Part shown: positions 13,462 to 64,000 of the stretch, one piece after another
Numbering within the stretch: position 1 is the stretch's first letter
Layout of the letters: each line of letters opens with the position of its first letter
Source: Morinoia aosen
Taxonomy: Eukaryota; Arthropoda; Malacostraca; Amphipoda; Talitridae
Assembly (NCBI GenBank): GCA_030386875.1
Contig: CM059563.1
Span: forward strand, 51,959,602-52,023,601
DNA: 64,000 bases
Direction of reading: 5' to 3'
The notes under the pieces: model-generated
Seen by the model: only the letters and a program-made list of their open reading frames with translations
Told to the model about the DNA's origin: nothing
Databases searched by the model: none
Made by a program: the position numbers and the translations under genes

Positions 13462-13595
13462 GTTTCTTTCTCTTTCACCGTTTCTGTCTCACACAGCACT
13501 AACAAATCACCAACTTCTGTTCTCGCTGTCCCGGGCTGTTTTTCGCTTCGGGACTTAAGATAACCTCACTTGATATTGCTTCATCGGAAGGTTTA

Positions 13596-13609: not shown

Positions 13610-13612
13610 TAA

Positions 13613-13869
13613 TGTACGTAGGTTAAGAAGACGAGACTCTTGGAGTTTGTATAATCAGTACACACAGCAGGACACACGTTTACATTACGAAGGGTAGCGG
13701 TGGAGTGGACTCCAGCCAAGCCCGAGAACTACGAGCAGAGATCCACAAGAACCATGAGCTCAGTTCTCAACGCATAGTGCTGTCTAAATACATTCTTACG
13801 CAAGAGCACTGTAACATTATCAGTATTATACACATATACATTCAAGGTGCTACATGAAAGGTTTCAACA
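13613..13869 (-). repeat. Copia 5' LTR
   Basis: 257 bp, same sequence as 9355-9611 by eye, followed by the duplicated target AGGTA at 13870-13874. It would contain the promoter for the minus-strand transcript. Confidence 0.95.
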
Positions 13870-46100: not shown

Positions 46101-49100
46101 GTACGTTCTTGCTTGCGATGTATAATAATTTCCTTCAGTGAATACGTCGTTGAAATGTTGCCGGAAGTCATTTCCCAAATTAATTACCATCTACCTATGG
46201 GAAGTGTCCTAGTGGTGACCAACTGCAGCATGATTGAGAAAACTGTTAAATGAGTCAAAAAAAAATATTTTACCCTAGAATGCACACAAAGTTAGCCTTG
46301 TCCATTAACATAGTGTTCAGGAGTGAGGTATCGAGCTTAAGTGAGTAAAATATTTTGTTGAGTGATAATATAAATAATGAGTGATAGTGAAAAGTTATTA
46401 AAGACAATAAGTTCAAGTTGAATCAGTCAAATGAACTAAAGAGATTTTAATATTGTTTTGTGAAGCATGCAATTAGAGGTTGCTAACTACTAATCTCAGT
46501 TGGTAGGGTATAAAGGTGATTTTCTACTAGTTAACTTGGAAAGTTTTCTGGGGTTAATAATTAGAATACGGCGAATTGTCTCTTTAAGGGACAATGGAAA
46601 GGAACTGACCATGTGGCCCTCGAGCACTGATGGCATTTGAGTGACGGAAATTTTACGTGTTCCCTTTACCACGTTTACTGGCATCGAAATTAGTGAAAAG
46701 ATTATCATAGGTTTTTCGAGTGTATCTTTCTTTTTTCGTGTATTGGGAACAAATAAGTCGAGACAAGGATTTGATACAGGTTACTCGTGCCTAGGTGCGG
46801 GTATCCAGCCCACCCGCACCTTCCCGTGGTGATGCTGTTAATATACCCGCTTGACAACTCTTGTTGGTCGTTACTTGTATTTGGATAGTGAATTGGTTAT
46901 TGTAAGTGTTATCAAAACTCACTATCGCGGGTAGAACCAACGCGGGGGGCGCCTAGGGCACTACGGTGCTCTAGGTCAATATATTTATTCATATCAGTTT
47001 GTGCGTTCTGAATCTAAAATTAAGGCTGTAGGTTTATAACCTACGTGTTTCGTTGCCTATTGGTATTCGAGTTGTGTTCTGTTCGTGTGCGTAAATCTTA
47101 TTCTTGTGAGCAACATTATAAATACACGTCCCGGTCCTAGAGGCCTCCAGCCTCTAAGACCGGGGACCATGGGGAGGGGAAATAGGGGTTCGCGGTCGGC
47201 AACTAGCCGAGGCCGTCCTGTGAACAACATAAAACTGACAAAGACCAACAACGATGAAACTTCCTCGCAGCAAGCTGGTGTCAAAACTATCAGGACGCCA
47301 ATCAGCAGAGCAAATCAGCGCCAAGTGAGCGGCAGCCCCGCGACTTCATCGGTGCCTTCTGGGACAGCGGTGGGGAGTGTGGCGGGTGGCAGCGCATCAC
47401 AGGGAGCAGTTGCAGAGCGAGTGGGAAGATTGGAGGAGAGGGTCAGCGAGCTGACGCAATGTTTGAGCAGTGTGAGCCACGATGGAGGTGCTACCGGAAC
47501 ACTAACATTTAGCAAGGAGCCCTCTACAGCCACAGTGGAAGAAAGGATCGAAAAGTTGGAACAAGCCATCGGCAGGTTGGTCGAGGTGGCGTCAGTTGCG
47601 TCTTCCCCGGAGAAGCCAAAGAATCTCGGACGTCCTGCAAGACCTCCGAAACAGAAATATGTTCCACTTGATATGATGAATCTTCCGCACCCAACTTCGT
47701 TTACCCGATTTTACACCATGAAATTTACACCCGAGACAAAGCGCGCAACCGATCCGTATACTGTAAAAGCAGTAATCACAAATACTACCAATTTCCCCCC
47801 TAAATCTATCACAACGAGCGGAAGGGAAAGCTTCACAGTCGAGGCGAAAGATGGCGTACAAGGACAGCGCCTGCTATCCATCACTAGCATAAATGGCACG
47901 CCGTGTGAAGTTTTCCCCCATCCAAAACTAAATACATCAAAAGGGATCATCTACATTAATGAATATAATGTTGATAATTTTGAAGAATTTGCCTCAGGGC
48001 TCAAAGAGAATTATGACATTAAAGATGTCATAGATGCCACCTTTATCAAAACAAAACGCGAACAAACCAGCGCGCTCATTTTGGAGTTCAACTCTGAGAA
48101 GCCCCCGGAATACATTTACATACCACGCAAACGATCTGACACCCGTGTTTATCCATACCTAGATAAACCAATGCACTGTTCAAATTGCCAGCAGTATGGA
48201 CATACCAAAAAACGCTGCAGTAAACCAACCACATGCGCCAGGTGCGGAACAACCGGACACACCTTGGATCAGTGCATCGAGACGCAGGCCGTATGCCTTC
48301 ACTGCCAGGGGCCGCACTTTGTTAGAAGCAAAACTTGCCCTAAACAAATTGAAGAAGAACAAATCTTAGCCATACAAAACAACCAAAAAGTAGGCAAACG
48401 CCGGGCTAGGCAGCTGTTCCATAACCCTCAGGACAACGCCGTTCAACCCGCCAGGACTTTTGTCTCACACTACCAGTGCACCATGGATCCAAATAAGAAG
48501 CGGAAACTTTCGCCTTGGACATTGGAAAAATGCTTAGAACGCGAGCTTGGACAAAAGCCGACAAAGATAACCACCCAAGGCCCAAACACATTTGTAATAG
48601 AAATAACTGATAAAAGCCCAATCAACAATATCTTCAACGTAACATCCCTCAATGGCATCCCAGTCACCATCTCAGAACACCCTCATTTCAACGCAGCTAA
48701 AGGGCTAGTGTTTCTGTATGAGTTTGACTTAGCATCCTTCGATACCTTCCGCGCAGGAATCATTGCGGACCACGGACTAAAAGATGCAGTTAAGGCTTCC
48801 TGGATCAAACCAAGAAATCCATTTGCACAACCGCTTCTGCTCACATTCCGACAAGATCTCCCCGACTTCCTGACCATACCTGGGGAGCAAGCAAAAACCA
48901 AAGTCTACCCCTACATCCCACGCCCAATGCTCTGCAAAATGTGCCTCACATATGGCCATACTAAGAAACGGTGTACAAGCGAAGTTGCAACTTGCGCCAG
49001 ATGCAACACTACCAACCACAGTTCCGAGGACTGCACAAGCGTCCAAATCGAATGCCACCATTGCAATCAGGACCATTACAGCGGTTCATACAAGTGCCCT

Positions 49101-52100
49101 GAATTCAAATACCAACAAGAAATCATCACTACTCAACATGAAGACAAACTCAGCAGAGCCCAGGCCAAGCAAAAAGTAGATTCTTCATTCCCTAGGCTCC
49201 AATATACGTTCGCTGACGCTGTACGCCGCGAGACCCCGCAGCCTTCACCTGATCCTGCGCCCATAGCGGACCTCTTGGAGAACGTGGATGATCATGCCAT
49301 CGTACCTACAGCACCGGATAACAACGTGCGGAGAAAACGTAAAAACTCAGATGAACTAGAACGACCCACCGAAAAGAGACAACTCTCCGAGGCAGTGTGC
49401 GAGGACCCAGCTGGTGGCGGGGGGCTTACTGCACACGTACAAGTGGTCTCAGACTACGACTCAGCCATGAGCGACAGCGAGATCACCAGTGAAAACAACC
49501 CGACTGTCAGAAGTGAAGCTAGGAAGATCTACGAACAGTATCAACAATAGAACCAATCTTCACATCCTTAAACAGACATGACGCACATTTTACAGTGGAA
49601 CTGTCAAGGCATACGGGCAAAAAAGGATGAACTGCTGGATCTCATACAGCGCTACAACCCTACCGTCATGGCGCTACAGGAGACTAAACTCTGGCACAAT
49701 TCTACGTTCTCCATTCCGCATTACACTTTGATTGCAAAACATGGCCACTTCAATTTCACCCCTCATGGAGGAGTAGGATTACTAGTCCACGAGTCCATTC
49801 CTTTCCAGCAAGTTGTATTAACGTCAGACCTCCAAGTGATCGCTGCCACCGTGCAGCTATCCAGACCTGTCACAGTGGTCTCTCTTTACTCATCGAGAAG
49901 CCATAACCTGACAATCACCGCTCTGCGCGATTTGCTCACCCAGCTGCCCTCGCCAATACTCCTGATGGGAGACTTCAATGCCTACAGCGTTGCGTGGGGA
50001 TGCAGAAGGAGCGATGCTCGAGGCCAAATAGTAGAAGAATTCATGAACGAGCACAACCTTTCACTTCTGAATACCGGATCTCCAACTCGAATATCCTACG
50101 GTTCTGAGTCCGCTATAGACTTAACGTTTGCCTCCCCCCGTTTGAGTGCTGATTTGGTGTGGGCTACGTGCGACTCTCCAGAGGACAGTGACCATTGCCC
50201 CATCATCACGAGGATAATGGGCCAACAACTGTATGAACCGAACCGAACGATATGGAATATGAAGAAGGCAGACTGGTCGTCTTATGAGAACCACCCTCAA
50301 TGGGATGAAATGCTAATTCCCGAGCAGGCAACGTGCGAGGAAGCTCTCGACCTATTCTCAAATAAAATTATGGCTATTGCTTCCGATTGTATCCCCACCA
50401 TAGTACTCTCCACTGCCCGCTTCCCAAAACCATACTGGAGTGCAAAACTCACCCAAACACGCCTTATCCGAGAGCAATGTTACCAAAAATATCGTCAACT
50501 GAAAACGCCACAGAACGCTTTGCGCTGGAAAAGAGCCAGAGCAATACACCGAAATCTTCTAAGAGATGAAAAGCGAAAGGCGTGGATTACCTTCGCCAGC
50601 AAATTTTCACAGCACACACCCCTCTCTACGGTCTATGAAAACATACGAAAAATAAAAGGACGCTCGCAGCGAAATATAGCAATCCTCCGCGAAAATAATT
50701 CGATTTATTCAACGATCCCTGACATAGCAAATAAGCTTGCAGAAACCTTTAGCAATACTAGCAGTGCCGCAAACTACAGCGCCGACTTCAGGCATGAAAA
50801 ACAAAAGGCAGAACTTGCCAGACTCGACTTCTCATCAATGAACGACGAGGACTACAACCAACCTTTCTCTTTAGCCGAACTCAAAACTGCCCTGTGTGCC
50901 ACCAAAGATACCTCACCCGGTAAAGATAAAATACTCTACAAAATGCTGAAGCACCTTCCTGAAAAAAGCAAACTTGATTTATTATCCGTATACAACAAGT
51001 TCTGGCTGCATGGACACTTTCCTCAGATCTGGCGGGAGGCAATCATTATACCTTTCCCAAAACCTGGTAAAACTCCGCACTCACCCCAGAACTATAGACC
51101 AATTGCATTGACCAGCTGCGTTTGCAAAACCCTTGAACGCCTAATCAACAATAGGCTCTACGATTACTGCGACATGCACGGCCTGCTCAACAACATCCAG
51201 TGTGGCGGTCGTCGAAATCGGTCAACAACCGACCATCTCATCCGCCTAGAAACAACAATTAGAAGAGCTTTTGCTCACGAAGAACACTTTGTAAGCGTTT
51301 TCTTCGATTTACAAAAAGCCTACGACACCACCTGGAGACATGGAATCATCAGGGATCTCCATAACATGGGCCTACGAGGTAGGCTCCCGCTATACATTCA
51401 ACAATTTCTTCGCAATCGTACTTTTAGAGTGTTACTTAACAATCACCTGTCAGACCCTTTCCCTCAAGAAGAAGGAGTCCCTCAAGGTTCTGTTCTCTCG
51501 ATCACCCTATTTATAATAAAAACGAACAACATCCTCAACCACATCCTCAACGACTCCAGATACCATGTATCTCTTTTTGTGGATGACCTTCAGGTGGGAT
51601 ATAGGCATCGGGACCTCAACGTCATCCAACTCAAGCTGCAGCACTGCATCGACCGTGTCGTCACGTGGGCCCAACTAAATGGATTTACCTTCTCAAAAGA
51701 AAAATCTAAAGCCATTCATTTCACCTTCCTTCCTGGCATTCACTTATCCCCAACTCTAAAAATCCACACCGAACACTTAACCTTCACTAACGAAATCAAA
51801 TTTTTAGGCCTTACCTGGGATCGCAAACTCTCATGGAAAACACATGTAAATAATATCAAATCCAACTGCAAAAGAGGCATAAATATGATGAAATCCATAT
51901 CGTCCCACGACTGGGGAGCTGACCAACACATCCTACTCCATATGTACAGGCTCTTCATCAGATCCAAACTCGATTATGGCAGCGTCGTTTATGGATCTGC
52001 CCCTGCATCTACACTGAAAATTTTAGACTCCATAGCTAACGATTGCCTACGATTAGCAACTGGAGCGTTTCGGTCGACTCCCGTTGCCAGCCTGCAGGTC

Positions 52101-55100
52101 TTGGCGAACGAAATGCCCCTCGGCCTACGAAGGCAACATCTCTCCTTGAGATATTATTATAAGACAAAGAGCCATATTTCCAGCCCTGCATTTAATTTCG
52201 CTATACCACCTACCGACAGAAGACTCTTCGCCAATAAAAATATGACGCCCACCTTTGCAATACGCACTTACAACCTTATCAACTCCCTGTGTATGGAGTG
52301 CCGCTTGGTGAAACCCTCATTTTCCTATCGGCTCCTGAACTTGACCACACCAACTTGGAAGACCTGCACAGCAGACATAAATACAGACCTGGCCGCGATG
52401 AAAAAGAGCGAGACTCACCCGACCCTGTATGTTCAAGAGTATAGACGTTTGAAGCGCGAGGTATTCGGTGGTTTTACGCCAGTTTACACTGATGGCTCCA
52501 AGAACTGCGATGGAGTGGGTGCCGCTGCGTTGTGTAGCGGCACCCATAAACAAATTTCGCTCCCGCATATATCATCGATATTTACTGCAGAACTCCACGC
52601 AATAGACCTGGCATTTCAAATAATAGGCGAACACTCTAACCTCCGCTTCGTTATATTCTCAGACTCTTTGAGCGCATTGATTATTCTACAAAACAAACTC
52701 ACTCCCCATCCAGTAGCACGAATGCTCCAACACCAGTTGAACGATTTATCAAATAATAAAACCATACGCTTTTGTTGGATACCGAGCCACGTGGGCATAA
52801 GTGGCAATGAAGCTGTCGACGGGCTCGCAAAGGACGCAGCCGCACGCCCTGCCAGCCAAGTGGCAGTGTTCTATAAAGATTGGTTTCCCGTGCTGGAGAG
52901 CAAGATATATGGTAAATGGAAGACGGACTGGCTCTGCACGACGAGCTTCCTACGTGGAATTAAGCCTGAACCAGGTCCGTGGAAAGAGAGAAAGCAAACG
53001 AGAAAAACGGAAGTCGTGTTAAATCGCCTCAGAGCAGGACACACCCATCTCACACACGGCTACCTCATGAATAACGAAGTGCAGGAGCCCCCTCCGGGCT
53101 GCCCCCTGTGCCTGCGTGCTCGCCTAACAGTGCACCACATCATCATGGACTGCCCAGCCCTGCAAGCTGCAAGACGCCAACACATCGCTGCATTTGCGGA
53201 TAACTCACTGCTGCCCTCCGTGGGAGACGTTCTGGGCGACAACGCACCGATCGGCCAGCTCGTGGCCTTCCTTCGCGCAATAAATGCGTTCGACCTCATA
53301 TAACTACATGTGAGGTTGAGAGACTATCGAGATAACAGTACGAATAATGTGTAGTGCCTGTCAACTTATCGTTACTTCTAGAACCCTGCTGACACAGTGG
53401 TAGTTAAAACGAAAGCAATCCATGTAACCGTTAGGGCGATATAGTCCGGGTTACTAAAGCACTAGTAAGCCTTTGCTGTTACCACTACTGCCGATACTCA
53501 ATCAATTTCCCAAACATAGACCAGCACTCGTCACTCCCGCTGCGTTGTAACGTTGCTAGTTCGTCTTAAGCCAACCGCGTGCTCCGTTACCGATGACCAT
53601 CTCCCCTACTTTCCCAATGCTTGTTGGGGGGTCCACAGTTGCATTTTGCTGGTGACCCTGGTGGAAAATTTTCCATAAAATTCTTCTTCTTCTTCTTCTT
53701 GAGTGACGAGTACAGAAAAAGTTCATCAAAGGCTTGTGATTTGTAGTAATGCTGAAAACGTAATATTGTCTTGTTGGTACCTATTGTTTCATTGATATTC
53801 ATAATTCTCTGAATGATAACCATAAAGTCTTATTGACGCCTACAATTCTTTTATTTTAGTGCGATGGACGCAAAAGTGCGACAGAACCATCGGACATTTT
53901 TTCAAGGCAATTTTTTGCAACGCTAATTAATGATGAAATATTTCAGCTACTGAATAATGACATCATTCTAACATCTCGTAGTCTGATCAAAAGCCTCGTG
54001 AAATCCTAAATAAATATCAGTACTAGCCTAAAGAGATACCAGTATTGATTGCTACGGATGATTTCTGATAATTTTAAGGGGATCATCCAAGTTTGAGACC
54101 TTTTTTCGTCCGATTCGTTTGAAAATTGGCCAGTATATGTCTTTTGTGAAAATAAACCGTTTTTGCTCATGTCATTTTTTCGATTTAGGCCTTATTATTA
54201 TTTTTTTTTGACGAAAAATGAGTTTTTTGGTAAATTTTATGTATATTTCAAAATGTATCTCCTCATTGAGTTTTGATGCTAGAACAAAAACAAACACAGT
54301 TTTAGAATCCTTGAAACATTTCTAACAAACTCAGTAAGGCTTTTTTTCAAATTCGAATTTATTTGATTTTTTCAAAATTTTTGAAAATTTCTGAAATGAC
54401 CAATAATTTTTTGGGTTTAGAGCTATATATTTTTTCGAAAAATTCGAATTTCAAAAAAATCCCTCCTGAGTTTGTTAGAAATGTTTCAAGGATTCTAAAA
54501 CTGTCTTTGGTTTTGTTCTAGCATCAAAACTCAATGAGGAGATACATTTACAATTTGGAAATTTTTTTTTTTTTGGTATAAACCATAACAAAATTTTTTG
54601 TTGAAGTGTAATAAAATGATCATATTATGTAATTGAATGCAGTTTTAATTTTCATTTTGATAATTCCCATACATAACTTCATATTCACACTGTAAATTGT
54701 GATTTCCAAAATGAAATAAAAACTAAAAAAATAAAATTATTTTTTTTTTCAAAATGAAATTTTTTTTTCTGTCTGATTCTTATGACATTTGACAATGATA
54801 TGTAACTTTGGAAAAGAAACACAATTTATTCCATTCGTTTTTTTGATTTAGGCCTTAGTTTTTGCAAAAAATTGACAAATTGGTTTTTACGTATTGATAT
54901 TTCACTGATACTGATATTTCAAGACGTATCTCCTCCTTCAGTTTTGATGCTAGAACAAAAACCAAGACAGTTTTAGAATCCTTAGAACATTTCTAACAAA
55001 CTCAGTAGGGATTTTTTTTTATTTCTCATTTGTTCACTTTTTATATGGGGTCAAAATCGGCCGAAAATGAATATTTTGGTCCCCTCACCACCCCCGGGGG

Positions 55101-57620
55101 GGGAATTATTGTCCGTAGCGCCATAAAATTTTGGGTCCGAATAGTCCACCAACTAAGGGTCCTTTTCCAACAAAAACATGAGAAATGACCCCCGGACCGA
55201 CAGGGGCCTGGGATGATCGCCTTAAAATCGGTAAGCTACCAGTATTGGGATGTACGAGGCCTGTCGAAAAAGTATCCGACCTTTGGCCAGAAAAAATACT
55301 TCAACAACCTGACGGGGTTGGGACCCTAATCCCCTTCGAAGTAGGCTCCTTGTGCTTCCACACACTTAGCCCACCGATCCTTCCACTGCCGGAAACACCT
55401 CTGGAAGTCTTCTTTTGGAATGGTGTTCAGCTCTGTCGTCGCGTTCCGCATTATCTCTTCTCTACTCTCAAAACGGGATCCTTTCAGTGGTGTCTTCAAT
55501 TTTGGAAACAACCAGAAGTCGCAAGGAGCCAGGTCTGGAGAGTAGGGAGGTTGGCGAACGGTCGTAATTCCATGTTTGGCCAAGAAATTGCGGATCAAAT
55601 GGGATGAATGTGCGGGCGCGTTGTCGTGATGCAAGTGCCAGTTGTTCGCAGTCCACATGTCTGGTCTTTTGCGCCGAACTGCATCACGAAGTCGCCGGAG
55701 AACATCCTGATAGTACTCCTTTGTCACTGTTTGTCCTTCCGGTGCGTATTCGTGATGCACAATTCCACGGACATCAAAGAAAACAGTCAGCATCGAAGGA
55801 GTCAAACAGGCAATGCGACGATGGAGCTGAACACCATTCTAAAAAAAAACTACCAGAGGTGTTTCCAGCAGTGGAAGGATCGGTGGGCTAAGTGTGTGCA
55901 AGCACAAGGGGCATACTTTGAAGGGGATTAGGGTCCCAACTCCGACAGGTATTCGAAATATTTTTTCTGGCCAAAGGTCGGATACTTTTTAGACAGGCCT
56001 CGTATACTCTTGTGAAAATCAGGGAAAAATTTGATTTCGGCCCTCTAACGTTGAGTGTCTCAACACCAGACTCAACTATCACGGCCCATAGCAGTTAGCA
56101 TGTTTTAGTGAGATGGTGACCACTCATTGTCGTGTCTGTTTCGAGAGCGAGTTAGTTGTGATGTCACACTTACTGAATGGTGTTAATAAGTTACCATTAA
56201 GACTCACACTGATGAAATTCAAACAATCGACATTCTCATTAGTCTGATGTGCAGCTTAGGTATAGCTACTCTGGCTGCAAACCCAATTCTGCTACTGCAG
56301 GCGCTCCCGAGAGGAAAATGTGAGGTCCTGAGCTGAGAGATAGACATTCTTTTTATTGAAATGAAGCTTTTTTTGTTTTGTTACGGACCATCTTTTTTTG
56401 GTTCACTATTGTCTTGTTTTTCAGCACCTACCACTTTCTTCCTCAACTTTTATCTTGTTTCCTAACATTTCATTTCAACTAACTGTTCCTAGTTAAACTA
56501 ACTGTTTAACTGGATCCTGTGCGGAGGCACTTTGTGCAAAGATTCCGCGTTCTCTTAACTCTATACTAAGCGATGCGTTCATCCTTTCTTTGAGCATCTT
56601 AGTTGTAGTAAGGGAGGCTGGAACTAACTTATAATCAATCTGGCACGTCAGGACCAGAGCCGCATGAAGCTGACGCCCCTGAAGCGCCTCCAGCACCAAC
56701 AGCAGCGCAGCGACCGCGGGTCGCCCGCTTCCTGTGCGGGGTCCTCGTCAGGAGCACCCACCCGCTCCTCGGCCTTCACTCTCATGGGCGCTACCACCAT
56801 CACCATTGCTGCCCTTTGCAGAAACGCCTGGGATCTCGAGAGAGTGAGTTTGTACTGCCTACTTGTATATTCGTGTCTGTCCTCAAGGCTGGGTGGATAT
56901 GGTACGTTTCTTCTGGGTTGGCTTTACGCGGTTTCTTGTGTTAGTTGTCACGTTTGGGTTGGTTGATGGCCATGTTTAGGTTAGCTTGTTGCCGAGCTAT
57001 GGTGGAGTTGTCACTTCAGTGTCTATTTTGTTGTTCACAAAATTTCATTTCTCGCAGCTTGTGAGCTGCTGCAGACATATATTTGGCCATCACTGTGATT
57101 GCCTTGAATTTTCTATGGCACAAAATGTCATTAATCTGAGTGGAATTTCTTTTAAGTTGGAAAGATTATTTATTCCTGTCTGACTGCTTTTTGTCTCTAT
57201 TCGTCATTGCATACATTTTCTCTCTATTGATTTTTTTTTAAAAAACATTGTTTGAAATTTAGCTTGTATAACTATCAAGCCAGAACTTCCAATGTGTGTG
57301 ACGTTTGTTAAATCAAGATTGTGAGCAATTTTGATTTCAGCACGTCATGCGAGCGTAGTTGCAGATAGTCGATCTTATGAAGTACACAAGTTACTAAATA
57401 AAAAAATTGCACGTATTTCCCTCAGGTGCCATCAATATCACCGCTGAGCGGGCACCTGCTAATGCAGGTGCAGGTACGGATGGAGGGCGGCGTGTCAGGG
57501 CGAGGCTTCCTCACCGTCTTCCAGGACGTGGGCGGGCTGGGGGCCTGGAGCCGCCGTTGGGCAGTGCTCGAGGGGCCTGCCCTCAAGTTCTGGAGCTACC
57601 CTGACCAGGAGAACAAACAG
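22150..57620 (+). CDS. anillin: Anillin, exons 1-20 (3' end beyond window)
   Basis: Anillin scaffolds the cytokinetic ring, linking F-actin, myosin II, RhoA and septins at the cleavage furrow. Twenty exons join with matching phases to 1346 codons. The N-terminus MADADPFVK|RMLARSEARRAMLAK matches the anillin start (M-DPF-x-x-x-LxRxxARR). The middle is low-complexity and Ser/Pro-rich, with a polyproline run (about residues 247-258) and a KVLARRQQQMQEWEDDY segment like the conserved LARRxxxxxxWEDD of insect anillins. The anillin homology domain (about 1051-1281) includes EAEKLLLLSTQRRLALLAEI, RGCITISNITLPL and SFSNTLTLDNLKPDFSI. The PH domain begins at about 1288 with GRGFLTVFQDVGGLGAWSRRW and FWSYPDQENKQ. 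Roughly 90 further residues are expected past the window. The gene exceeds 41 kb because its introns are loaded with transposons. Confidence 0.95.
22705..23239. mobile_element. Foldback MITE, copy I, with perfect 8-bp target duplication
   Basis: GGAATTAG flanks both sides (22,697-22,704 and 23,240-23,247). The ends are G(A/G)TAAATGTATAGTGTTTGA, inverted, and similarity between the arms runs for about 200 bp. The centre holds a near-perfect hairpin (22,868-22,993). Confidence 0.85.
22868..22993. repeat. Near-perfect long hairpin (arms about 56 bp, short loop)
   Basis: The left arm (including AACGTAAAGAGGTTGGGTCG) and right arm (CGACCCGACCTCTTTACGTT) are complementary apart from a few mismatches, around the loop TTTATAATTTTC. 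Transcribed as part of the anillin intron, it would form a strong RNA stem. Confidence 0.85.
23584..24132. mobile_element. Foldback MITE, copy II, with perfect 8-bp target duplication
   Basis: CTGTTTTT flanks both sides (23,576-23,583 and 24,133-24,140). The ends are GGTAAATCTGAAGGATATGT, inverted. The interior carries the family's GAGTATTTTATTAGTTATAG and AGCGGTAAATGACTTACCGC palindrome plus a second inverted pair. Confidence 0.88.
24378..24891. mobile_element. Foldback MITE, copy III, with perfect 8-bp target duplication
   Basis: AATTTAAT flanks both sides (24,370-24,377 and 24,892-24,899). The ends are GGTAAATCT(G/A)AAGGATA, inverted. It is clearly related to copy II throughout. Ends starting GG with 8-bp duplications and long inverted repeats recall Merlin-type elements, but no transposase is present to confirm this. 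Confidence 0.88.
25205..25985 (+). repeat. 30-bp minisatellite of splice-acceptor-like units
   Basis: About 27 tandem units of consensus GAGTGTGGCTGAGTCTCCCT plus CCCCCTCCCA. A central block uses a 24-bp version (deletion of six pyrimidines). Unit lengths are multiples of three, so all frames stay open on both strands (for example SVAESPSPSQ repeats), which makes long but meaningless frames. Each unit has a C/T tract followed by CAG. The minus strand carries repeated GGGAGGGGGAGGGA, able to form G-quadruplexes. Confidence 0.95.
26047..26194 (+). CDS. anillin: Anillin exon 2
   Basis: Acceptor CCTGCAG|AGG, donor AAAG|GTTGGT. Starts phase 0, ends phase 1. Encodes RMLARSEARRAMLAKLGGES and a DKENVP segment. 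Confidence 0.9.
26195..27313 (+). other. Anillin intron 2
   Basis: AT-rich; no repeat or gene recognised. Confidence 0.7.
27314..28263 (+). CDS. anillin: Anillin exon 3 (largest, 950 nt)
   Basis: Acceptor TTGCAG|GG, donor CTT|GTAAGT. Phase 1 to 0. Ser/Thr/Pro-rich, with polyproline at 27,878-27,909, an ARRQQQMQEWEDDY segment and a Thr-rich run (ACT repeats, about 28,020-28,050). Ends KLFWDRKLISSL. Confidence 0.93.
28264..29898 (+). other. Anillin intron 3
   Basis: Holds one copy of the intronic repeat family (28,394-28,726). The rest is AT-rich and unremarkable. Confidence 0.7.
28394..28726 (+). repeat. Intronic repeat family, copy A
   Basis: Shares the order GGGGATA-AACTATTG, GGAGGCCTTC, GGnCCATCTTTTTTTGGT, CTTGCTGTTCTATGTGCAGG, AAATGGTATCTTCCTCCTTC and GGGAGGCTGAAACTAAC with the other copies. 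It contains a pyrimidine tract plus TGTGCAG that resembles a 3' splice site. Confidence 0.8.
29899..30213 (+). CDS. anillin: Anillin exon 4
   Basis: Acceptor ACGCTTAG|GAG, donor AGT|GTGAGT, 105 codons, phase 0/0. Encodes EAQGFTPESKSRLVYQFKKE and a charged helix, then Ser/Pro-rich sequence. Confidence 0.9.
30214..31404 (+). other. Anillin intron 4
   Basis: Holds repeat family copy B (30,640-30,972); otherwise nothing recognised. Confidence 0.7.
30640..30972 (+). repeat. Intronic repeat family, copy B
   Basis: Diverged copy with GGTTCACTGCTGTTTTT, CTTGCTGTCTCTGTGTGCAG and a GCTTAAACTAAC end. Same orientation as the gene. Confidence 0.75.
31405..31808 (+). CDS. anillin: Anillin exon 5
   Basis: Acceptor TTCGTGCAG|CGT, donor GCGA|GTGAGG. 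Phase 0 to 2. Encodes VEQLRNRWEQQIRD, then basic SP-rich sequence suited to CDK-type phosphorylation (inference). Confidence 0.9.
31809..32198 (+). other. Anillin intron 5
   Basis: Short AT-rich intron; nothing recognised. Confidence 0.6.
32199..32305 (+). CDS. anillin: Anillin exon 6
   Basis: Acceptor TGGCAG|GG, donor ACTG|GTCAGA. Phase 2 to 1. Encodes VVKGVCPMPDAVPLLDEPHQ and KARAAAFSSVMT. Confidence 0.88.
32306..33581 (+). other. Anillin intron 6
   Basis: Contains a LINE 3' tail fragment (33,241-33,338); otherwise AT-rich. Confidence 0.65.
33241..33338 (+). mobile_element. LINE 3' end fragment with (TAC)n tail
   Basis: GCGATATAGTACGAATTACT at about 33,274-33,293 matches GCGATATAGTCCGGGTTACT at 53,436-53,455, downstream of the LINE ORF2, and continues (GAAGCGCTAGCAA versus AAAGCACTAGTAA). 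It ends in five to six TAC repeats. This is probably a severely 5'-truncated copy of the LINE family in intron 18, or a SINE sharing its tail. Confidence 0.65.
33582..33712 (+). CDS. anillin: Anillin exon 7
   Basis: Acceptor TGTGCAG|CAC, donor AAG|GTGAGC. Phase 1 to 0. Encodes DPAELSVQGRRQIFERRGED, resembling the conserved DPSELSVAxRxxLFE segment of anillins. Confidence 0.9.
33713..35072 (+). other. Anillin intron 7
   Basis: Holds repeat family copy C; the rest is AT-rich. Confidence 0.7.
34533..34876 (+). repeat. Intronic repeat family, copy C
   Basis: Starts CCCCTCAGGGGCTACCACTA, includes TGAGGGCCGAGCTGAGAGTT and ends with AGGGAAGCTTAAACTAAC. Near full length, sense to the gene. Confidence 0.85.
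35073..35187 (+). CDS. anillin: Anillin exon 8
   Basis: Acceptor TGGTGCAG|GTG, donor ACTG|GTGAGG. Phase 0 to 1. Low-complexity, His/Ala/Thr-rich. Confidence 0.85.
35188..37056 (+). other. Anillin intron 8
   Basis: Two repeat-family copies lie head-to-tail (36,130-36,319 truncated; 36,320-36,682 full). The rest is not recognised. Confidence 0.7.
36130..36682 (+). repeat. Intronic repeat family, copies D (truncated) and D2 (full)
   Basis: Copy D stops in its T-rich middle, where D2 begins with CCCCCTCTGGCAGATACGAC. D2 runs to GGGAGGCTTAAACTAACTAA. Both are sense to the gene. Either D2 replaced the 3' half of D or the array arose by unequal events. Confidence 0.8.
37057..37206 (+). CDS. anillin: Anillin exon 9
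   Basis: Encodes VSRYRGALEAAA and WQQQKRREMEALRNRF. Donor GCTG|GTCTGT, phase 1 to 1. The acceptor is weak (GAGCAG|TG after little pyrimidine). A site 3 bp upstream would keep the frame, so the 5' edge is uncertain by one codon. Confidence 0.8.
37207..37717 (+). other. Anillin intron 9
   Basis: Nothing recognised. Confidence 0.6.
37718..37903 (+). CDS. anillin: Anillin exon 10
   Basis: Acceptor CCTTGCAG|ATG, donor AACA|GTGAGT, phase 1 to 1. Acidic DYTDSEYAESEYSFEKYE followed by a Pro-rich PGPPKPPRTY segment. Confidence 0.88.
37904..38745 (+). other. Anillin intron 10
   Basis: Nothing recognised. Confidence 0.6.
38746..38860 (+). CDS. anillin: Anillin exon 11
   Basis: Acceptor TTTTTGAAG|CTC, donor GAGAG|GTACAA, phase 1 to 2. 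Encodes SPSKRHFEPHVKPGCLYPGL and SDIESMSDVDHQPDE. Confidence 0.83.
38861..39720 (+). other. Anillin intron 11
   Basis: Nothing clear. A short duplicated TTATGTTGCA(T/C)TCACCT(C/T)A occurs just before the acceptor (about 39,645-39,705). Confidence 0.6.
39721..39853 (+). CDS. anillin: Anillin exon 12
   Basis: Acceptor CTGGCAG|CGC, donor ACG|GTGCGT, phase 2 to 0. Encodes SACSRESVGDATCVSMDSLG and a QQIARHNREQQ helix. Confidence 0.88.
39854..40192 (+). other. Anillin intron 12
   Basis: Nothing recognised. Confidence 0.6.
40193..40297 (+). CDS. anillin: Anillin exon 13
   Basis: Acceptor TATTGTGCAG|GAG, donor CAG|GTATTG, 35 codons, phase 0/0. Acidic, with ALDEAFSDDSTSQVTPPKR. Confidence 0.88.
40298..41098 (+). 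other. Anillin intron 13
   Basis: Nothing recognised. Confidence 0.6.
41099..41230 (+). CDS. anillin: Anillin exon 14
   Basis: Acceptor GTCCACAG|AGT, donor GCT|GTGAGT, 44 codons, phase 0/0. Contains PLTHTISMYRKQRP, like the conserved SISxYRKxQ segment ahead of the anillin homology domain. Confidence 0.9.
41231..41993 (+). other. Anillin intron 14
   Basis: Holds a ~60-bp fragment of the repeat family (41,697-41,755: GCAACTATCGTATCTATGGG). Otherwise not recognised. Confidence 0.6.
41994..42125 (+). CDS. anillin: Anillin exon 15
   Basis: Acceptor GTGTTGCAG|GAG, donor ATG|GTGGGT, 44 codons, phase 0/0. Ends LVASERIKVLSEM. Confidence 0.9.
42126..43819 (+). other. Anillin intron 15
   Basis: Dominated by TTAGG-like degenerate repeats and the dispersed repeat they belong to (see 42,240-43,700). 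Confidence 0.75.
42240..43700 (+). repeat. Dispersed repeat with degenerate GGTTAGGATA array, copy 1
   Basis: A leader (GAGTTTGCGGTATCA, GTTACATTAAAAGATTG, TTTTATCAGGATAGG) is followed by several ~150-200-bp units built of TTAGG/TTAGGATAGG words and a GTTGACnGAATTTTTTCACGG segment with CCACCTAGCTTAACGATGAC. A tail (TGATACGAGTTTCACCAGTG; GGATGGATATATTTGTTTG) follows, then another GGTTAGG-rich stretch (43,430-43,700). The same leader, core and tail recur in order at 59,757-60,665. Confidence 0.8.
43820..43975 (+). CDS. anillin: Anillin exon 16 (start of anillin homology domain), GC donor
   Basis: Acceptor GACGGCAG|GAG, 52 codons, phase 0/0. Encodes ENKELRIMQQACGAV and EAEKLLLLSTQRRLALLAEI, the coiled-coil/RhoA-binding start of the homology domain. 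The donor is CAG|GCAAGC, a GC-AG intron; no GT donor keeps the frame at the domain edge. Confidence 0.92.
43976..44784 (+). other. Anillin intron 16 (GC-AG)
   Basis: Starts GCAAGC and ends TTTTCAG. Contains repeat family copy F and a partial second piece at about 44,465-44,525. Confidence 0.75.
44081..44525 (+). repeat. Intronic repeat family, copy F plus fragment
   Basis: Starts CCTCTCAGGGGGATGCAACT and ends GAGGCTAAACCGAATTTATT, followed by a repeat of the family's CCTGCTGTTTCTATGCGCAC segment at about 44,500-44,520. Sense to the gene. Confidence 0.85.
44785..44914 (+). CDS. anillin: Anillin exon 17 (homology domain)
   Basis: Acceptor GGTTTTCAG|CGT, donor AATG|GTAAAC, phase 0 to 1. Contains SRGCITISNITLPLSQDFLK, the C2-like part of the domain. 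Confidence 0.93.
44915..45587 (+). other. Anillin intron 17
   Basis: Nothing recognised. Confidence 0.6.
45588..45802 (+). CDS. anillin: Anillin exon 18 (homology domain)
   Basis: Acceptor TATCCTCAG|AAA, donor AAA|GTGAGC, phase 1 to 0. Contains HHVLVLVKQQEKVLATCV and ISFSNTLTLDNLKPDFSIVI. Confidence 0.95.
47169..49550 (+). CDS. LINE ORF1 protein with duplicated nucleic-acid-binding module
   Basis: The start is the ATG in ACCATGG; the frame is open a further 84 bases upstream. From that Met the protein is 793 aa. After a coiled-coil-prone VERIGRLEE/VEERIEKLEQ region (about 80-140), two homologous modules follow. Module 1 (about 177-400) has a PRE_C2HC-type region with a KGIIYINEYNVDNFEEF core and three zinc knuckles (HCSNCQQYGHTKKRC, CARCGTTGHTLDQC, CLHC...). 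Module 2 (about 440-650) repeats this with KGLVFLYEFDLASFDTF, CKMCLTYGHTKKRC, CARCNTTNHSSEDC and CHHC. The C-terminus is acidic with a nuclear-signal-like RRKRK. ORF1 proteins of this kind bind the element RNA. The doubled module is unusual. Confidence 0.9.
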   Translation: MGRGNRGSRSATSRGRPVNNIKLTKTNNDETSSQQAGVKTIRTPISRANQRQVSGSPATSSVPSGTAVGSVAGGSASQGAVAERVGRLEERVSELTQCLSSVSHDGGATGTLTFSKEPSTATVEERIEKLEQAIGRLVEVASVASSPEKPKNLGRPARPPKQKYVPLDMMNLPHPTSFTRFYTMKFTPETKRATDPYTVKAVITNTTNFPPKSITTSGRESFTVEAKDGVQGQRLLSITSINGTPCEVFPHPKLNTSKGIIYINEYNVDNFEEFASGLKENYDIKDVIDATFIKTKREQTSALILEFNSEKPPEYIYIPRKRSDTRVYPYLDKPMHCSNCQQYGHTKKRCSKPTTCARCGTTGHTLDQCIETQAVCLHCQGPHFVRSKTCPKQIEEEQILAIQNNQKVGKRRARQLFHNPQDNAVQPARTFVSHYQCTMDPNKKRKLSPWTLEKCLERELGQKPTKITTQGPNTFVIEITDKSPINNIFNVTSLNGIPVTISEHPHFNAAKGLVFLYEFDLASFDTFRAGIIADHGLKDAVKASWIKPRNPFAQPLLLTFRQDLPDFLTIPGEQAKTKVYPYIPRPMLCKMCLTYGHTKKRCTSEVATCARCNTTNHSSEDCTSVQIECHHCNQDHYSGSYKCPEFKYQQEIITTQHEDKLSRAQAKQKVDSSFPRLQYTFADAVRRETPQPSPDPAPIADLLENVDDHAIVPTAPDNNVRRKRKNSDELERPTEKRQLSEAVCEDPAGGGGLTAHVQVVSDYDSAMSDSEITSENNPTVRSEARKIYEQYQQ
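49578..53303 (+). CDS. LINE ORF2: endonuclease, reverse transcriptase, RNase H
   Basis: The 1241-aa enzyme starts at the ATG 27 bases after the ORF1 stop. An apurinic-type endonuclease (residues 1-220) shows LQWNCQGIRAKKDELLDLI, GDFNAYSVAWG (about 130) and SDHCPI (about 204). The RT has NYRPIALTS (about 504), FFDLQKAYD (about 575), GVPQGSVLS (about 633) and the catalytic FVDD (about 666). RNase H has YTDGSKN (about 968), TAELHAID (about 1004), SDSLSAL (about 1028) and WIPSHVGISGNEAVDGLAK (about 1065). A CPLC...HHIIMDC zinc knuckle follows (about 1174-1190). All catalytic residues are present. Endonuclease plus RNase H fits I/LOA-like clades better than Jockey proper, but clade needs a tree. 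Confidence 0.93.
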   Translation: MTHILQWNCQGIRAKKDELLDLIQRYNPTVMALQETKLWHNSTFSIPHYTLIAKHGHFNFTPHGGVGLLVHESIPFQQVVLTSDLQVIAATVQLSRPVTVVSLYSSRSHNLTITALRDLLTQLPSPILLMGDFNAYSVAWGCRRSDARGQIVEEFMNEHNLSLLNTGSPTRISYGSESAIDLTFASPRLSADLVWATCDSPEDSDHCPIITRIMGQQLYEPNRTIWNMKKADWSSYENHPQWDEMLIPEQATCEEALDLFSNKIMAIASDCIPTIVLSTARFPKPYWSAKLTQTRLIREQCYQKYRQLKTPQNALRWKRARAIHRNLLRDEKRKAWITFASKFSQHTPLSTVYENIRKIKGRSQRNIAILRENNSIYSTIPDIANKLAETFSNTSSAANYSADFRHEKQKAELARLDFSSMNDEDYNQPFSLAELKTALCATKDTSPGKDKILYKMLKHLPEKSKLDLLSVYNKFWLHGHFPQIWREAIIIPFPKPGKTPHSPQNYRPIALTSCVCKTLERLINNRLYDYCDMHGLLNNIQCGGRRNRSTTDHLIRLETTIRRAFAHEEHFVSVFFDLQKAYDTTWRHGIIRDLHNMGLRGRLPLYIQQFLRNRTFRVLLNNHLSDPFPQEEGVPQGSVLSITLFIIKTNNILNHILNDSRYHVSLFVDDLQVGYRHRDLNVIQLKLQHCIDRVVTWAQLNGFTFSKEKSKAIHFTFLPGIHLSPTLKIHTEHLTFTNEIKFLGLTWDRKLSWKTHVNNIKSNCKRGINMMKSISSHDWGADQHILLHMYRLFIRSKLDYGSVVYGSAPASTLKILDSIANDCLRLATGAFRSTPVASLQVLANEMPLGLRRQHLSLRYYYKTKSHISSPAFNFAIPPTDRRLFANKNMTPTFAIRTYNLINSLCMECRLVKPSFSYRLLNLTTPTWKTCTADINTDLAAMKKSETHPTLYVQEYRRLKREVFGGFTPVYTDGSKNCDGVGAAALCSGTHKQISLPHISSIFTAELHAIDLAFQIIGEHSNLRFVIFSDSLSALIILQNKLTPHPVARMLQHQLNDLSNNKTIRFCWIPSHVGISGNEAVDGLAKDAAARPASQVAVFYKDWFPVLESKIYGKWKTDWLCTTSFLRGIKPEPGPWKERKQTRKTEVVLNRLRAGHTHLTHGYLMNNEVQEPPPGCPLCLRARLTVHHIIMDCPALQAARRQHIAAFADNSLLPSVGDVLGDNAPIGQLVAFLRAINAFDLI
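54074..55225. mobile_element. TTAA-flanked non-autonomous element, relative of 19,018-20,232
   Basis: TTAAGGGGATCATCC at 54,074-54,088 is mirrored by GGATGATCGCCTTAA at 55,211-55,225 (one mismatch). The ends resemble those of the element at 19,018 (TTAAGGGGAnCnTCCA). No transposase. It carries three copies of a ~110-bp block, two direct and one inverted. Confidence 0.75.
54250..55020. repeat. Three copies of a ~110-bp block (two direct, one inverted)
   Basis: The block contains GTATCTCCTC...GTTTTGATGCTAGAACAAAA and TTTTAGAATCCTTGAAACAT, then TTCTAACAAACTCAGTA. It lies at about 54,255-54,345 (+), about 54,460-54,548 (inverted) and about 54,919-55,008 (+). The first two form an AT-rich stem of about 100 bp. 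ATTTAGGCCTTA precedes both direct copies. Confidence 0.85.
55326..55805 (-). pseudogene. Mariner transposase, C-terminal half (DD34D)
   Basis: 159 residues covering the catalytic core from the first Asp (TVFFDVRG, D11 of the fragment) through HHDNAPAHSS (D61) and YSPDLAPCDFWLFPKLK (D96) to the natural C-terminus GAYFEGD. D61 to D96 spacing is 34 residues, the mariner DD34D signature. The N-terminal DNA-binding helix-turn-helix domains are absent because the sequence turns into the inverted second arm at about 55,805. A full protein would be about 340 aa. Confidence 0.9.
55803..55931 (+). pseudogene. Inverted second copy of the mariner transposase C-terminus
   Basis: The + strand encodes ATMELNTILKKNYQRCFQQW and KDRWAKCVQAQGAYFEGD, a diverged copy of the last ~40 residues of the minus-strand fragment. 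Differences (ILKKNY versus IPKEDF, VQ versus VE) show the two arms come from different copies or diverged after joining. Confidence 0.85.
56282..56640 (+). repeat. Intronic repeat family, copy G, abutting the exon 19 acceptor
   Basis: Includes GGCGCTCCCGAGAGGAAAAT, TCCTGAGCTGAGAG, GGACCATCTTTTTTTGGTTC and GGGAGGCTGGAACTAACTTA, ending at ATAATCAATC. Exon 19 starts 11 bases later, so the acceptor's branch point and pyrimidine tract would have to lie in the repeat. Confidence 0.85.
56652..56843 (+). CDS. anillin: Anillin exon 19 (end of homology domain)
   Basis: Acceptor CACGTCAG|GAC, donor AGA|GTGAGT, 64 codons, phase 0/0. Encodes MKLTPLKRL (family: xTPKRLL), a Ser-rich loop and FTLMGATTITIAAL. 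The acceptor lies only 11 bases after the end of an intronic repeat copy. Confidence 0.93.
56844..57425 (+). other. Anillin intron 19
   Basis: Nothing recognised. Confidence 0.6.
57426..57620 (+). CDS. anillin: Anillin exon 20 (first half of PH domain)
   Basis: Acceptor TTCCCTCAG|GTG, donor CAG|GTTCGA, 65 codons, phase 0/0. Encodes SPLSGHLLMQVQVRM, GRGFLTVFQDVGGLGAWSRR and WSYPDQENKQ. The last two PH strands and the C-terminal helix are missing and must be in exons beyond 64,000. Confidence 0.95.
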
Positions 57621-61311: not shown

Positions 61312-63856
61312 ATGTACGCCAAAAATAAAAACAAATTAAAACAACGAATAAACTCTTACAAAAACAACCTAAGCACTGCTACCAACGTAGGTGCAACAAA
61401 CCCCAAAACTAACACTATCACCAGGAAGATAAGCGAAAACAATGACACATCTGACCAAACAACCGAAAAAACTCCACCAGAACCAAACGGTGCTACCTGT
61501 AAGGTGGACCAATTGGAGGCTAAATTAAATGAAGTGCTGAATAGACTTGCGGCAGGTGATGCAACCAAATGCATCAACCCCGATAAACATGAAGTTGAAA
61601 AAGAAGCACAAAATGTAGACGATCGAATAAGGAAAATCGAAAATACACTCGAAAAAATCCTAGAAATGACGAAAGCGCAGAACATAGGAAAAAACAGTAA
61701 AATCATGGGCTGCGAGAAGGAAAATGTGAGAAAACAAAGCAAAGCTAACAAATACACACCCATATCGTTGAACCAAGAAATGACGAAGAACGACCATTAT
61801 ACAAAGTTCTTCTCGGTCAAATTCAAAATCGAAGAGAGAAACCAAATAAATCCATTTTGCCTCCAAGAAGAAATAGTCAAAATAACTGGTTTGAAGGCGA
61901 AAAGAATAACTTATTCAAGTAAAGATAGCTTTATCATAGAAACTCGAAACAAACCCCAATCTGAGCGCATCACCAGACTTACTAACGTCGACGGCATTAA
62001 TTGCCAGATCAGCGAACACCCATACTACAATCAATCCAAAGGACTAATATATATTCAAGAATACGATGTAGATAATATGGAAGATTTTGTGGAAGGCCTG
62101 AAGAGCCAGTACAATATCAGTGACGCTGTCCGTGCCAGCTTCATTAAAACTCGATTCTCCCAAACCACCCCACTCCTACTAACCTTTAATAGCTACACAA
62201 CACCAGACTCTATATATATCCCAGGCGAAAAATCGGATACGATAGTATACCCATTTATTAATAGACCAATGATCTGCCACAAATGCCAAAACTACGGCCA
62301 CACAGCCAAACACTGCCATAACGAAGCAAACTGTAAACGCTGCGGAGAAACAGGCCATGACAGCGAACACTGTGGCAGCGCCCTCTCCTGCATGCATTGC
62401 AAGCGTCAACATGAAACTGGCCACAGAGAATGCCCAAAACATATCATGGAAACAGAAACATGCAAAGTCCAACAAGAACAACGAGTTAATAGGCGTCGTG
62501 CTGTACAGATAGTCACAGGACACTCCGAGATACCAATATCAGATACGAACACCCCCACAACTCATTTCAATATAACAATGCAGGTTAAACGAAAAGCGGA
62601 AAATTACTCCATGGCTCCTAGAAAAATGTATTGCAAACCAAATCCAAGGAAAACCCAAATCTATTCGATCGGGCGGCAAAAACACATTTATTGTAGAATT
62701 AGATCACACACGACAAAAAGATGAAATACAGAAAATCAAAGACATAAACAACATCCCTGTGCAAGTAACAGAAAATAACTATGTAAATCTTTCAAAAGGA
62801 CTCGCCTACATCTATAACTACGACTTCACCAACTTCGAGAAATTCAAACAAGGTTTAATGGAAAACCATATAATCAAAAATGTTGAACCAGCAAATTGGA
62901 TAAAAAGCCGTAACACAAATGCAAAAGCAATACTTCTAACTTTCAGAGGCTCAACCCCCCCTGAGTATATCGACATCCTTGGCCAAGACTGCAAGAGTAG
63001 GATATATGAATACTTCGACCGCCCTATGATGTGTAAAAAGTGCTTGGAATACAACCATACTGCTAAAAGATGTACCAGTGAAGAGTTCGTGTGTGGAAAA
63101 TGCGCAACAAAAGGCCATGAAGCAACAAATTGCACTGAAAACAACTTGACATGCTACCACTGCGGAAACAATCACAAAACTGGAGACCGGACTTGCCCGG
63201 AACAACGCAAGCAACAAGAACTAATTTCTATCCGTACTAAACAAAACGTATCAAGAGAACAAGCCCTTATAATATACCACAAACGATCCCCACAACTCGA
63301 TCAAAGCTACGCACAAATAACCAGAAATCGAACGGATCAAATACCCAAAGTACCAACCCCCCAACCCTTTATGGCGGCTACCAAAAACCAAACGATCACC
63401 GAACAAAATATGGCTCCCCCACTTTGTAACGAACCAGGTACAACTGATAACACAACCGATACACCAGAAACCAAACCACCGCAAACTTCACAACGCGACC
63501 ACGAAACATGCGAAAAAGAAATACTCCGCATTAAACCCAACCCAACACAATTGCTCAAATCCACAATTAATATTAAAACTACAGCCGAAGGATCTGAAAA
63601 TGAGGAAGATGGCACGAGCGAATGCAACCCTATTATGAGACAAGAAGCCAGACGAATATTCAACGAATTCAAACCCCCAAAGCAGCACAAACCTCCCAAA
63701 ACCCAAAACAAGAAGCGACCAAGATCACGATCAAAATCACGATCCCCCACCTACAGCCGCAACAGACACGATAAACGACAAATTTACTCAGATGAGGAAC
63801 AATCATACTACTCTCGAGACTCTATGATTAGAGATAGATCACCCAAAAGAAAGTAA
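61312..63856 (+). pseudogene. LINE ORF1 with two modules, single frameshift
   Basis: The frame starts MYAKNKNKLKQRINSYKNN. A coiled-coil-prone VDQLEAKLNEVLNRL is followed by module 1 with KGLIYIQEYDVDNMEDF and knuckles CHKCQNYGHTAKHC, CKRCGETGHDSEHC, CMHC. Near 62,605 one indel shifts the frame (the old frame stops at 62,724). In the new frame the protein continues PWLLEKCIANQIQ, then module 2 with KGLAYIYNYDFTNFEKF, CKKCLEYNHTAKRC, CGKCATKGHEATNC and CYHC, ending in an SR-rich tail (SRSKSRSPTYSRN) at 63,856. The intact relative at 47,169 joins the same two parts in one frame, so this is a mutation or a sequencing error rather than two genes. Confidence 0.85.
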
Positions 63857-63899: not shown

Positions 63900-64000
63900 A
63901 TGGCTAACGTAGGAATCCTGCAGTGGAACTGCCAAGGCATCAGGGGAAAGAAAGATGAACTAATGGAAACAATAAACAACCACCAACCCAGTATAATAGC
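63900..64000 (+). CDS. LINE ORF2 start (endonuclease), truncated by window end
   Basis: The ATG at 63,900 opens MANVGILQWNCQGIRGKKDE, matching the start of the first LINE's ORF2 (ILQWNCQGIRAKKDELL). Only 33 codons are visible. Confidence 0.85.
   Translation, partial: MANVGILQWNCQGIRGKKDELMETINNHQPSII

Follow-up and report, generated by a model that had tools for sequence, protein, structure and literature searches.

We describe here a LINE, LINE-A, that is most probably a complete and recently mobile I-group-like element whose ORF1 is a tandem duplicate of the whole type I core, placed behind a coiled-coil-like N-terminus. It lies in a 64,000-nucleotide stretch of the Morinoia aosen genome (contig CM059563.1, positions 51,959,602 to 52,023,601), which we call the window and to which all coordinates below refer. 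Sequence comparisons indicate that the duplication is old and was inherited through several LINE families that are still young.

Two homologous units in one ORF1

The ORF1 of LINE-A (47169..49550, plus strand) is an open frame for a doubled putative RNA-binding protein of 793 aa. In a blastp comparison (E = 3.9e-57), residues 175-421 align with residues 429-685 of the same protein over 240 aa, of which 33% are identical. The homology of these two units, each about 245 aa long, is thus far beyond chance. Each unit has two CX2CX4HX4C knuckles and one CX2CX3HX6C knuckle, giving six in the ORF1, and the sequence-only reading of two homologous three-knuckle modules in a single protein is borne out.

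All parts of the protein are on the plus strand. Two short heptad-repeat (coiled-coil-like) segments, at residues ~79-101 and ~121-145, lie in the N-terminal region (47403..47603); on a home-made score, distinct from COILS, no more than 1 in 1000 shuffles reached the heptad signal of LINE-A, and 0 in 1000 that of the second LINE of the window, LINE-B. Module 1 comprises a tandem RRM-like pair (residues 175-334, 47691..48170) and three CCHC knuckles recognised by their motifs (residues 335-392, 48171..48344). These knuckles match Pfam zf-CCHC at E = 0.005, which is under the Pfam cut-off, and residues 333-374 match lentiviral nucleocapsids in a search of PDB sequences. Module 2 repeats this order, with an RRM-like pair (residues 429-586, 48453..48926) and then three CCHC knuckles (residues 587-646, 48927..49106).

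Each unit is predicted to consist of an RRM-like pair, three CCHC knuckles and a helical tail. The AlphaFold2 models behind this prediction, built with four sequences of which one is partial, are of moderate confidence (pLDDT 74-75). Module 1 (pLDDT 75.5) is modelled as beta-alpha-beta-beta-alpha-beta followed by beta-alpha-beta-beta, and module 2 (pLDDT 74.3) has its elements in the same order; the second RRM is incomplete in the models of both units. Foldseek matched both models to tandem RRM proteins, with query-side TM-scores to PDB entries of only 0.23-0.33. In these moderate-confidence models an RRM stands directly upstream of the CCHC knuckles in both units, as in type I ORF1 proteins. 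The type IB ORF1p described in the Jockey lineage has two RRMs and then three CCHC knuckles (Metcalfe & Casane 2014, PMC4120745). Either LINE-A unit alone fits this make-up, but type IB has one such set per protein and LINE-A has two.

The modules had earlier been labelled PRE_C2HC, a name that we drop: PF07530 gave no Pfam match at E<=0.1 in the LINE-A ORF1 and none at E<=1 in an intact copy of the LINE-B ORF1. Among the four single-unit families described below (C-F), only family C matched it (E = 0.0031), its 18.0 bits falling below the cut-off of 22.1.

LINE-A is complete and present in many copies

Comparison of copies and flanking repeats places LINE-A at 46647..53698 on the plus strand, with a 5' UTR, ORF1, ORF2 and a 3' UTR that ends in (TTC)n. 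Its 5' end falls at a common position in 21 of 23 oriented copies. The insertion has the hallmarks of non-LTR retrotransposition, namely the (TTC)n 3' tail and a 10-bp target-site duplication, TTGAGTGACG, on each side (46637..46646 and 53699..53708); the final G of the left repeat is possibly derived from the element. ORF2 (49578..53303, plus strand, 1241 aa) encodes an APE-type endonuclease, a reverse transcriptase (RT) and an RNase H (Pfam Exo_endo_phos_2 3.6e-24, RVT_1 5.8e-34 and RNase_H 2.8e-12), the domain set of the I group. Because ORF2 includes RNase H, LINE-A appears to be I-group-like, a class assigned from domain content, and the earlier Jockey label does not apply.

A doubled frame could in principle arise where neighbouring elements, or an assembly error, are fused into one, and a nearly identical counterpart of the LINE-A region does lie 2.4 Mb from it within this contig. 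However, the same frame occurs in dozens of copies elsewhere, just two pairs among the 23 loci compared share a flank, and these copy numbers refute an artefact, to which we give practically no credence. Among the rows listed for family A, 28 of 58 are full length and stop-free.

The duplication predates the split of families A and B

LINE-B lies at 61.3 kb, on the plus strand. Its ORF1 is split in the window by a frameshift: a first frame (61312..62724) holds the N-terminus and module 1, with knuckles at ~62275-62436, and a second (62759..63856) holds the rest of module 2 and the tail, with knuckles at ~63032-63196. The start of ORF2 (63900..64000) follows and ends at the window edge. A stop-free ORF1 frame of 871-875 aa, for instance an intact one of 872 aa, is present in 66 of the 90 listed copies of LINE-B, and its units 1 and 2 are homologous (E = 3.7e-52). 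The claim that the second LINE shares the doubled design with quite different sequence therefore holds for the layout and for the sequence, orthologous units of A and B being 38-42% identical, but the copy in the window is frame-broken.

It had been proposed that the duplication is ancestral to both elements, and that aligning the modules of both would show each grouping with its counterpart. In the unit tree, the second units of A and B form a clade (A2+B2, support 96/99). Trees that join the two units of A were rejected (p-AU 0.00198), as were those that join the two units of B (p-AU 0.00456); a clade of the first units (A1+B1) was neither supported nor rejected (p 0.40). Thus the expected grouping appeared for the second modules only, and the A2+B2 clade together with the two rejections supports a duplication that preceded the divergence of A and B.

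It is very improbable that A and B underwent separate duplications. The knuckle part taken alone would accommodate them, since it rejects neither A1+A2 nor B1+B2 (p-AU 0.25 and 0.26), and copies that reside in one genome, as those of A and B do, could undergo conversion. Against this, trees of the RRM part reject both groupings as the whole unit does (p-AU 0.002-0.005), also under LG+G4, and the distance from the first cysteine of unit 1 to that of unit 2 is 252 aa in A and identical in B.

Doubled and single-unit relatives in the same genome

An ancestral duplication is consistent with the other LINE families of this genome. In family G, 61 of 61 listed rows cover, at equal length, the full 317-aa span across both knuckle sets. 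In a fourth family group the unit-1 knuckles were found by search and the unit-2 knuckles stand at the predicted position in two copies. On this sequence evidence, the ORF1s of both groups are doubled as well. The suggested search for single-module relatives was also productive: four RNase-H LINE families (C, D, E and F) have a single-unit ORF1, as seen over the entire ORF1 frame in three of them. They resemble the units of A and B in having a corresponding upstream region, three knuckles and the same post-knuckle tail, but have one unit only and are 16-27% identical to those of A and B.

Alternatively, the exchange of ORF1s among LINE lineages could have carried the doubled form, making its spread reticulate rather than vertical. 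There is a precedent, in that exchange of ORF1 as a whole unit was proposed for CR1/L2 elements (PMC4120745). We consider this unlikely here, because A and B are closest also over the N-terminal 63 aa of ORF2 (58.7% identity for LINE-B copy L033, versus 28-39% to C, D and F) and G is near A in ORF1 (62-64%) and RT (72-74%) alike.

Are both units maintained?

The sequence-only reading held that the doubled design is kept by selection. All 24 metal-ligand positions (24/24) are retained in both A and B, and in family A dN/dS is 0.32 for the whole ORF1, 0.24 for the first knuckle set and 0.01 for the second (among 25 copies). Constraint is looser elsewhere in A (unit-2 RRM 0.53, linker 0.96) and, on very few changes, in B (unit-2 RRM 0.80, C-tail 1.91). 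These data suggest that selection maintains both units; they fall short of proof because protein similarity was the basis on which copies were chosen, and because unit 2 of B is little constrained, on few changes.

The second unit might accordingly be a passenger, a chance duplication that is tolerated and dispensable for mobility, as the weak constraint on the unit-2 RRM in B and the moderate constraint in A would allow. We regard this as quite unlikely, given that the knuckle ligands of both units survive despite the divergence of A and B, that the unit-2 knuckles of A have a dN/dS of 0.01, and that the design is retained in two more family groups. None of 126 listed rows had cleanly lost a unit from within, although single-unit derivatives would rank lower and may be unlisted.

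Putative role of the doubled core

In its likeliest role, the doubled ORF1 would form a coiled-coil oligomer that packages RNA cooperatively. In this scenario, the protein would oligomerise via its N-terminal coiled-coil-like segment, after which the duplicated core (RRM-RRM-three CCHC knuckles-helical tail) is predicted to lie, and the oligomer would coat the LINE RNA in cis. Both units may bind RNA jointly, with a larger footprint and higher avidity, and may chaperone it for target-primed reverse transcription.

Since the units have diverged, with 33-35% identity between the two in one protein, some division of labour is plausible, with RNA segments, or RNA and target DNA, as candidate partners. 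A stronger version, which we regard as rather unlikely, is that the units are specialists for different RNA parts (e.g., the 3' end for one and conserved blocks of the 5' UTR for the other) or for RNA versus target DNA; one ORF1 chain would then bridge both, setting cis preference or target priming beyond what single-unit ORF1s can do.

ORF1 proteins are the least understood component of LINEs. A natural and long-kept doubling of the binding core, beside single-unit relatives in one genome, offers a clean comparison that bears on the number of binding units required in an ORF1 and on whether added valence alters RNA packaging or copy number. Intragenic duplication would be a further route of ORF1 change, next to domain shuffling and the exchange of ORF1s.

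Comparison with known systems

LINE-A shares with I-group LINEs the ORF2 domains, a simple 3' repeat tail and a target-site duplication, and differs from them in its doubled ORF1. The ORF1 of the Drosophila I factor has one knuckle set. A further parallel is L1TD1, a domesticated mammalian LINE-1 protein with two ORF1-like regions, whose origin was left open between tandem duplication and two insertions (PMC4161310). Unlike LINE-A, L1TD1 is a host gene made of L1-type regions (coiled coil, RRM, CTD) rather than a component of a mobile element (PMC4161310).

The type IB survey covers the Jockey, CR1 and L2 lineages, with the I group outside its scope, and the wordings 'duplicat', 'tandem' and 'double' are absent from its main text (PMC4120745). 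In the open-access literature, including passages of PMC4120745, PMC4161310, PMC5940361 and PMC3905857 but excluding Repbase and most subscription papers, we found no mobile element described with a doubled type I ORF1; wide earlier description of this design would have spoken against the sequence-only reading.

Further observations

The 5' UTR of LINE-A gave three chance-level matches to Rfam, all under the gathering score, so a known ribozyme was not recognised there, and its folding lacked a clear excess of stability (z 0.49, -1.19 and -2.08). Beyond the host genome, relatives were found neither in viral contigs (scanned with the module alignment and the RT part) nor in prokaryote genome contigs (scanned with the module alignment and ORF2). 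The host genome is 2.0 Gb in size. One further family in it, with an ORF2 frame of 1249 aa, is 75% identical to A in the RT, about as near as G; its ORF1 was not among the matches listed in two knuckle searches. The knuckle search also listed families whose ORF1 frames are 830 and 831 aa long.

LINE-A and the structure of its ORF1

The window copy of LINE-A, a complete LINE at 46647-53698, ends in a (TTC)n tail and is bracketed by TTGAGTGACG, one copy occupying 46637-46646 and the other 53699-53708. In the genome behind all copy searches, which contains the window (1.99 Gb, 29 contigs, eukaryotic), 23 family-A loci allowed orientation by the exact ORF1 start, and the 5′ end falls in the identical place in 21 of them; flanks are shared in two pairs of these loci only and differ elsewhere. 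Given that Pfam identifies endonuclease, reverse transcriptase (RT) and RNase H domains in ORF2, domain content rather than an RT tree points to membership of the I group. Family A is young on sequence grounds. Residues 1-793 are spanned by at least 37 of at least 58 family-A matches, at least 28 of those 37 being stop-free, and a shorter query, the unit-2 knuckles, finds at least 72 family-A places at 85-100%, then at least 78 matches at 68-71%.

ORF1 of LINE-A (47169-49550) is an open frame of 793 aa that does contain, as the sequence-only reading proposed, two homologous modules with six knuckles. The first unit (A1, residues 175-421) and the second (A2, 429-685) align over 240 aa with 33% identity (E 3.9e-57), and each has two CX2CX4HX4C knuckles and then one of the form CX2CX3HX6C. 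The PRE_C2HC label given to these modules was not upheld: Pfam has no match in LINE-A ORF1 (E ≤ 0.1) or in an intact copy of LINE-B, the second LINE at 61.3 kb (E ≤ 1), and among four single-unit families (C, D, E and F) a sub-threshold match occurs in C alone (E 0.0031).

AlphaFold2 models of A1 and A2 (mean pLDDT 75.5 and 74.3; input alignment of four sequences only, one partial) have one fold in full RRM order (beta-alpha-beta-beta-alpha-beta) and next to it a second, incomplete RRM (beta-alpha-beta-beta), followed by knuckles at low confidence and a helical tail. The best Foldseek matches in the PDB for both units are tandem-RRM proteins (NONO/SFPQ/PSPC1, IMP3 RRM12 and Hrp1), with hnRNP A1 and hnRNP A2/B1 also found for A1; best E values are 2.3e-5 (A1) and 6.0e-5 (A2), at low query-side TM-scores of 0.23-0.33. 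The type IB ORF1 core is described, in the part of Metcalfe & Casane consulted (PMC4120745), as two RRMs plus three CCHC knuckles. Because models and Foldseek indicate tandem RRMs ahead of the knuckles, each unit is predicted to be such a core; type IB as described there has the make-up of one unit, whereas LINE-A ORF1 would have two.

Distribution of the doubled design

The doubled design had also been proposed for LINE-B, and both units are indeed present there. A frameshift splits the window copy, but an intact 872-aa frame occurs in 24 of 30 fetched loci (846 aa in one), and 68 of the 90 matches listed for a first-part query lie in 871-875-aa frames, two of them with an internal stop. The first cysteines of units 1 and 2 are 252 aa apart in A and likewise in B. 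A 317-aa query from the unit-1 through the unit-2 knuckles of A gave 126 matches: 65 belong to family A (two being fragments of a single copy) and the other 61 to a third family, G, all of these 61 covering the full query at 62-64% identity and, at 951 nt, with the length found in A. The unit-1 knuckle query gave at least 66 family-A matches and at least 84 at 72-75%, among whose listed matches frames of 826, 830, 831 and 833 aa are common. Reads of 120 nt at the site predicted for unit 2, from a single copy of the 826 type and a single copy of the 833 type, have two knuckles each, identical to A unit 2 at 23/40 residues vs 11/40 and 10/40 for A unit 1. We treat these types as one family group because the reads differ at just 2/40 residues. 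Four family groups thus show doubling at the sequence level: A, B, G and 826/833, with unit 1 of the last a search match alone.

Families C, D, E and F, picked from RNase-H matches in long frames and not as nearest neighbours of A, were read over about 2.2 kb upstream of ORF2. All four were found to be single-module relatives within the same genome, with one unit of three knuckles each. The whole ORF1 frame was read in C, D and F (612, 676 and 649 aa), with the endonuclease start next; in E, 470 aa were read, the frame being open at its downstream end. Another family (ORF2 frame 1249 aa; loci include C12:39528274 and C3:34235405 in genome G000) is nearer to LINE-A in its RT, with 75% identity across the core. 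Inspected by eye, its expected ORF1 places are absent among the matches listed for the unit-1 and unit-2 knuckles, and it may be a relative that has a single unit or has strongly diverged.

Age of the duplication

In a tree of eight units (A1, A2, B1, B2 and one each from C-F), the four units of A and B form a group apart from C-F (support 100/100) and A2 groups with B2 (96/99). Forcing A1+A2 costs 20.6 log-likelihood units (p-AU 0.00198) and forcing B1+B2 costs 18.7 (p-AU 0.00456). Since A2+B2 group and both within-element pairings are rejected, a single duplication is placed before the A/B split, in agreement with the ancestral origin first proposed. The expected grouping of counterparts held for A2/B2; an A1+B1 clade is compatible but without support (p 0.40), A1 branching first in the best tree (49/22). 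The RRM part alone (A2+B2 94/99; pairings rejected at p 0.0038 and 0.0044) and LG+G4 (98/97; p 0.0028 and 0.0043) agree with this result, and the knuckle part alone, too short an alignment to discriminate, gave p 0.25 and 0.26 for A1+A2 and B1+B2. An exchange of ORF1 between lineages could also have occurred, but A is nearest B at the start of ORF2 too (58.7% identity over the first 63 aa vs 28-39% to C, D and F), which fits vertical descent of the doubled ORF1.

The 5′ UTRs of LINE-A (46646-47168) and LINE-B (60806-61311) have well conserved blocks in common, though the ORF1 units are just 38-42% identical: most of the first 50 nt, GATACAGG, GGTATCCAGC, GCACCTT, CGTGGTG and GGGTAGAAC. Folding gave no clear excess stability and an Rfam search for RNA elements no recognised family; the blocks are perhaps a promoter or RNA element.

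Constraint and possible role

Copies for dN/dS were taken in order of their protein similarity to the query, a choice that lowers dN. In family A (25 intact ORF1s), dN/dS is 0.32 over the whole ORF1, 0.43 in the N-terminus, 0.96 in the linker and 0.28 in the C-tail; RRM and knuckle values are 0.34 and 0.24 in unit 1, and 0.53 and 0.01 in unit 2. Family B (n=24, very few changes) has 0.21 overall, 0.11 in the N-terminus, 1.91 in the C-tail, 0.03 and 0.00 in unit 1, and 0.80 and 0.23 in unit 2, a comparison between units that is unreliable because copies were ranked by unit-1-side similarity. As to the proposal that selection kept the duplication, a stronger sign than dN/dS is that A and B each have 24/24 knuckle ligands, even though their orthologous units have diverged to 38-42% identity.

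Two short heptad-repeat segments, picked by eye and scored by a simple, home-made measure, lie N-terminal of the units in both A and B and are matched by at most 1/1000 shuffles. In the parts of the literature consulted (PMC3905857, PMC4120745), ORF1 proteins commonly form multimers, often via coiled coils, and assemble into RNPs together with their RNA, and the knuckles of Jockey-like ORF1s are thought to act with RRMs in RNA binding. The likeliest reading is that chains with N-terminal heptads would form a coiled-coil oligomer, in which doubled units would provide more binding sites per chain. Given how deeply the units have diverged, they could have specialised. We recognised no mobile element with a doubled type I ORF1 in the open-access literature searched, and such a protein may already be known from a database such as Repbase or Dfam only, or from other literature such as subscription papers. 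The closest precedent, L1TD1, is as described in part of PMC4161310 a host gene, whereas the doubled ORF1 of LINE-A belongs to a mobile element.

Other features of the window and genome

The LINE-A and LINE-B pair is present twice, at C8:52.007-52.022 Mb and, 2.4 Mb apart, at C8:54.412-54.427 Mb. Matches of the second pair are 100% identical, the split frame of LINE-B included, and its spacing is 761 bases shorter; the segment may have been duplicated recently, or the assembly may contain it in duplicate. The top four matches of the RNase H search (130-174 bits; next match 74) are all on C27:56.7-71.6 Mb and may be bacterial-type genes of symbiont, contaminant or transferred DNA.

A tandem array (25204-25981; 30-bp unit, 27 copies, 92% matches) has several open frames on both strands, and an inverted repeat at 55253-56004 (193-nt arms, 90% complementary, 366 nt between) is foldback or MITE-like by its sequence. 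A 692-aa open frame on the minus strand (3028-5106) encodes a hAT-like transposase with a hAT dimerisation domain (PF05699). Also on the minus strand, an intact Copia-type LTR element (9354-13869) has a 1280-aa gag-pol frame (Pfam) between two 258-nt repeats, and its insertion is very recent, given that these repeats are 100% identical.
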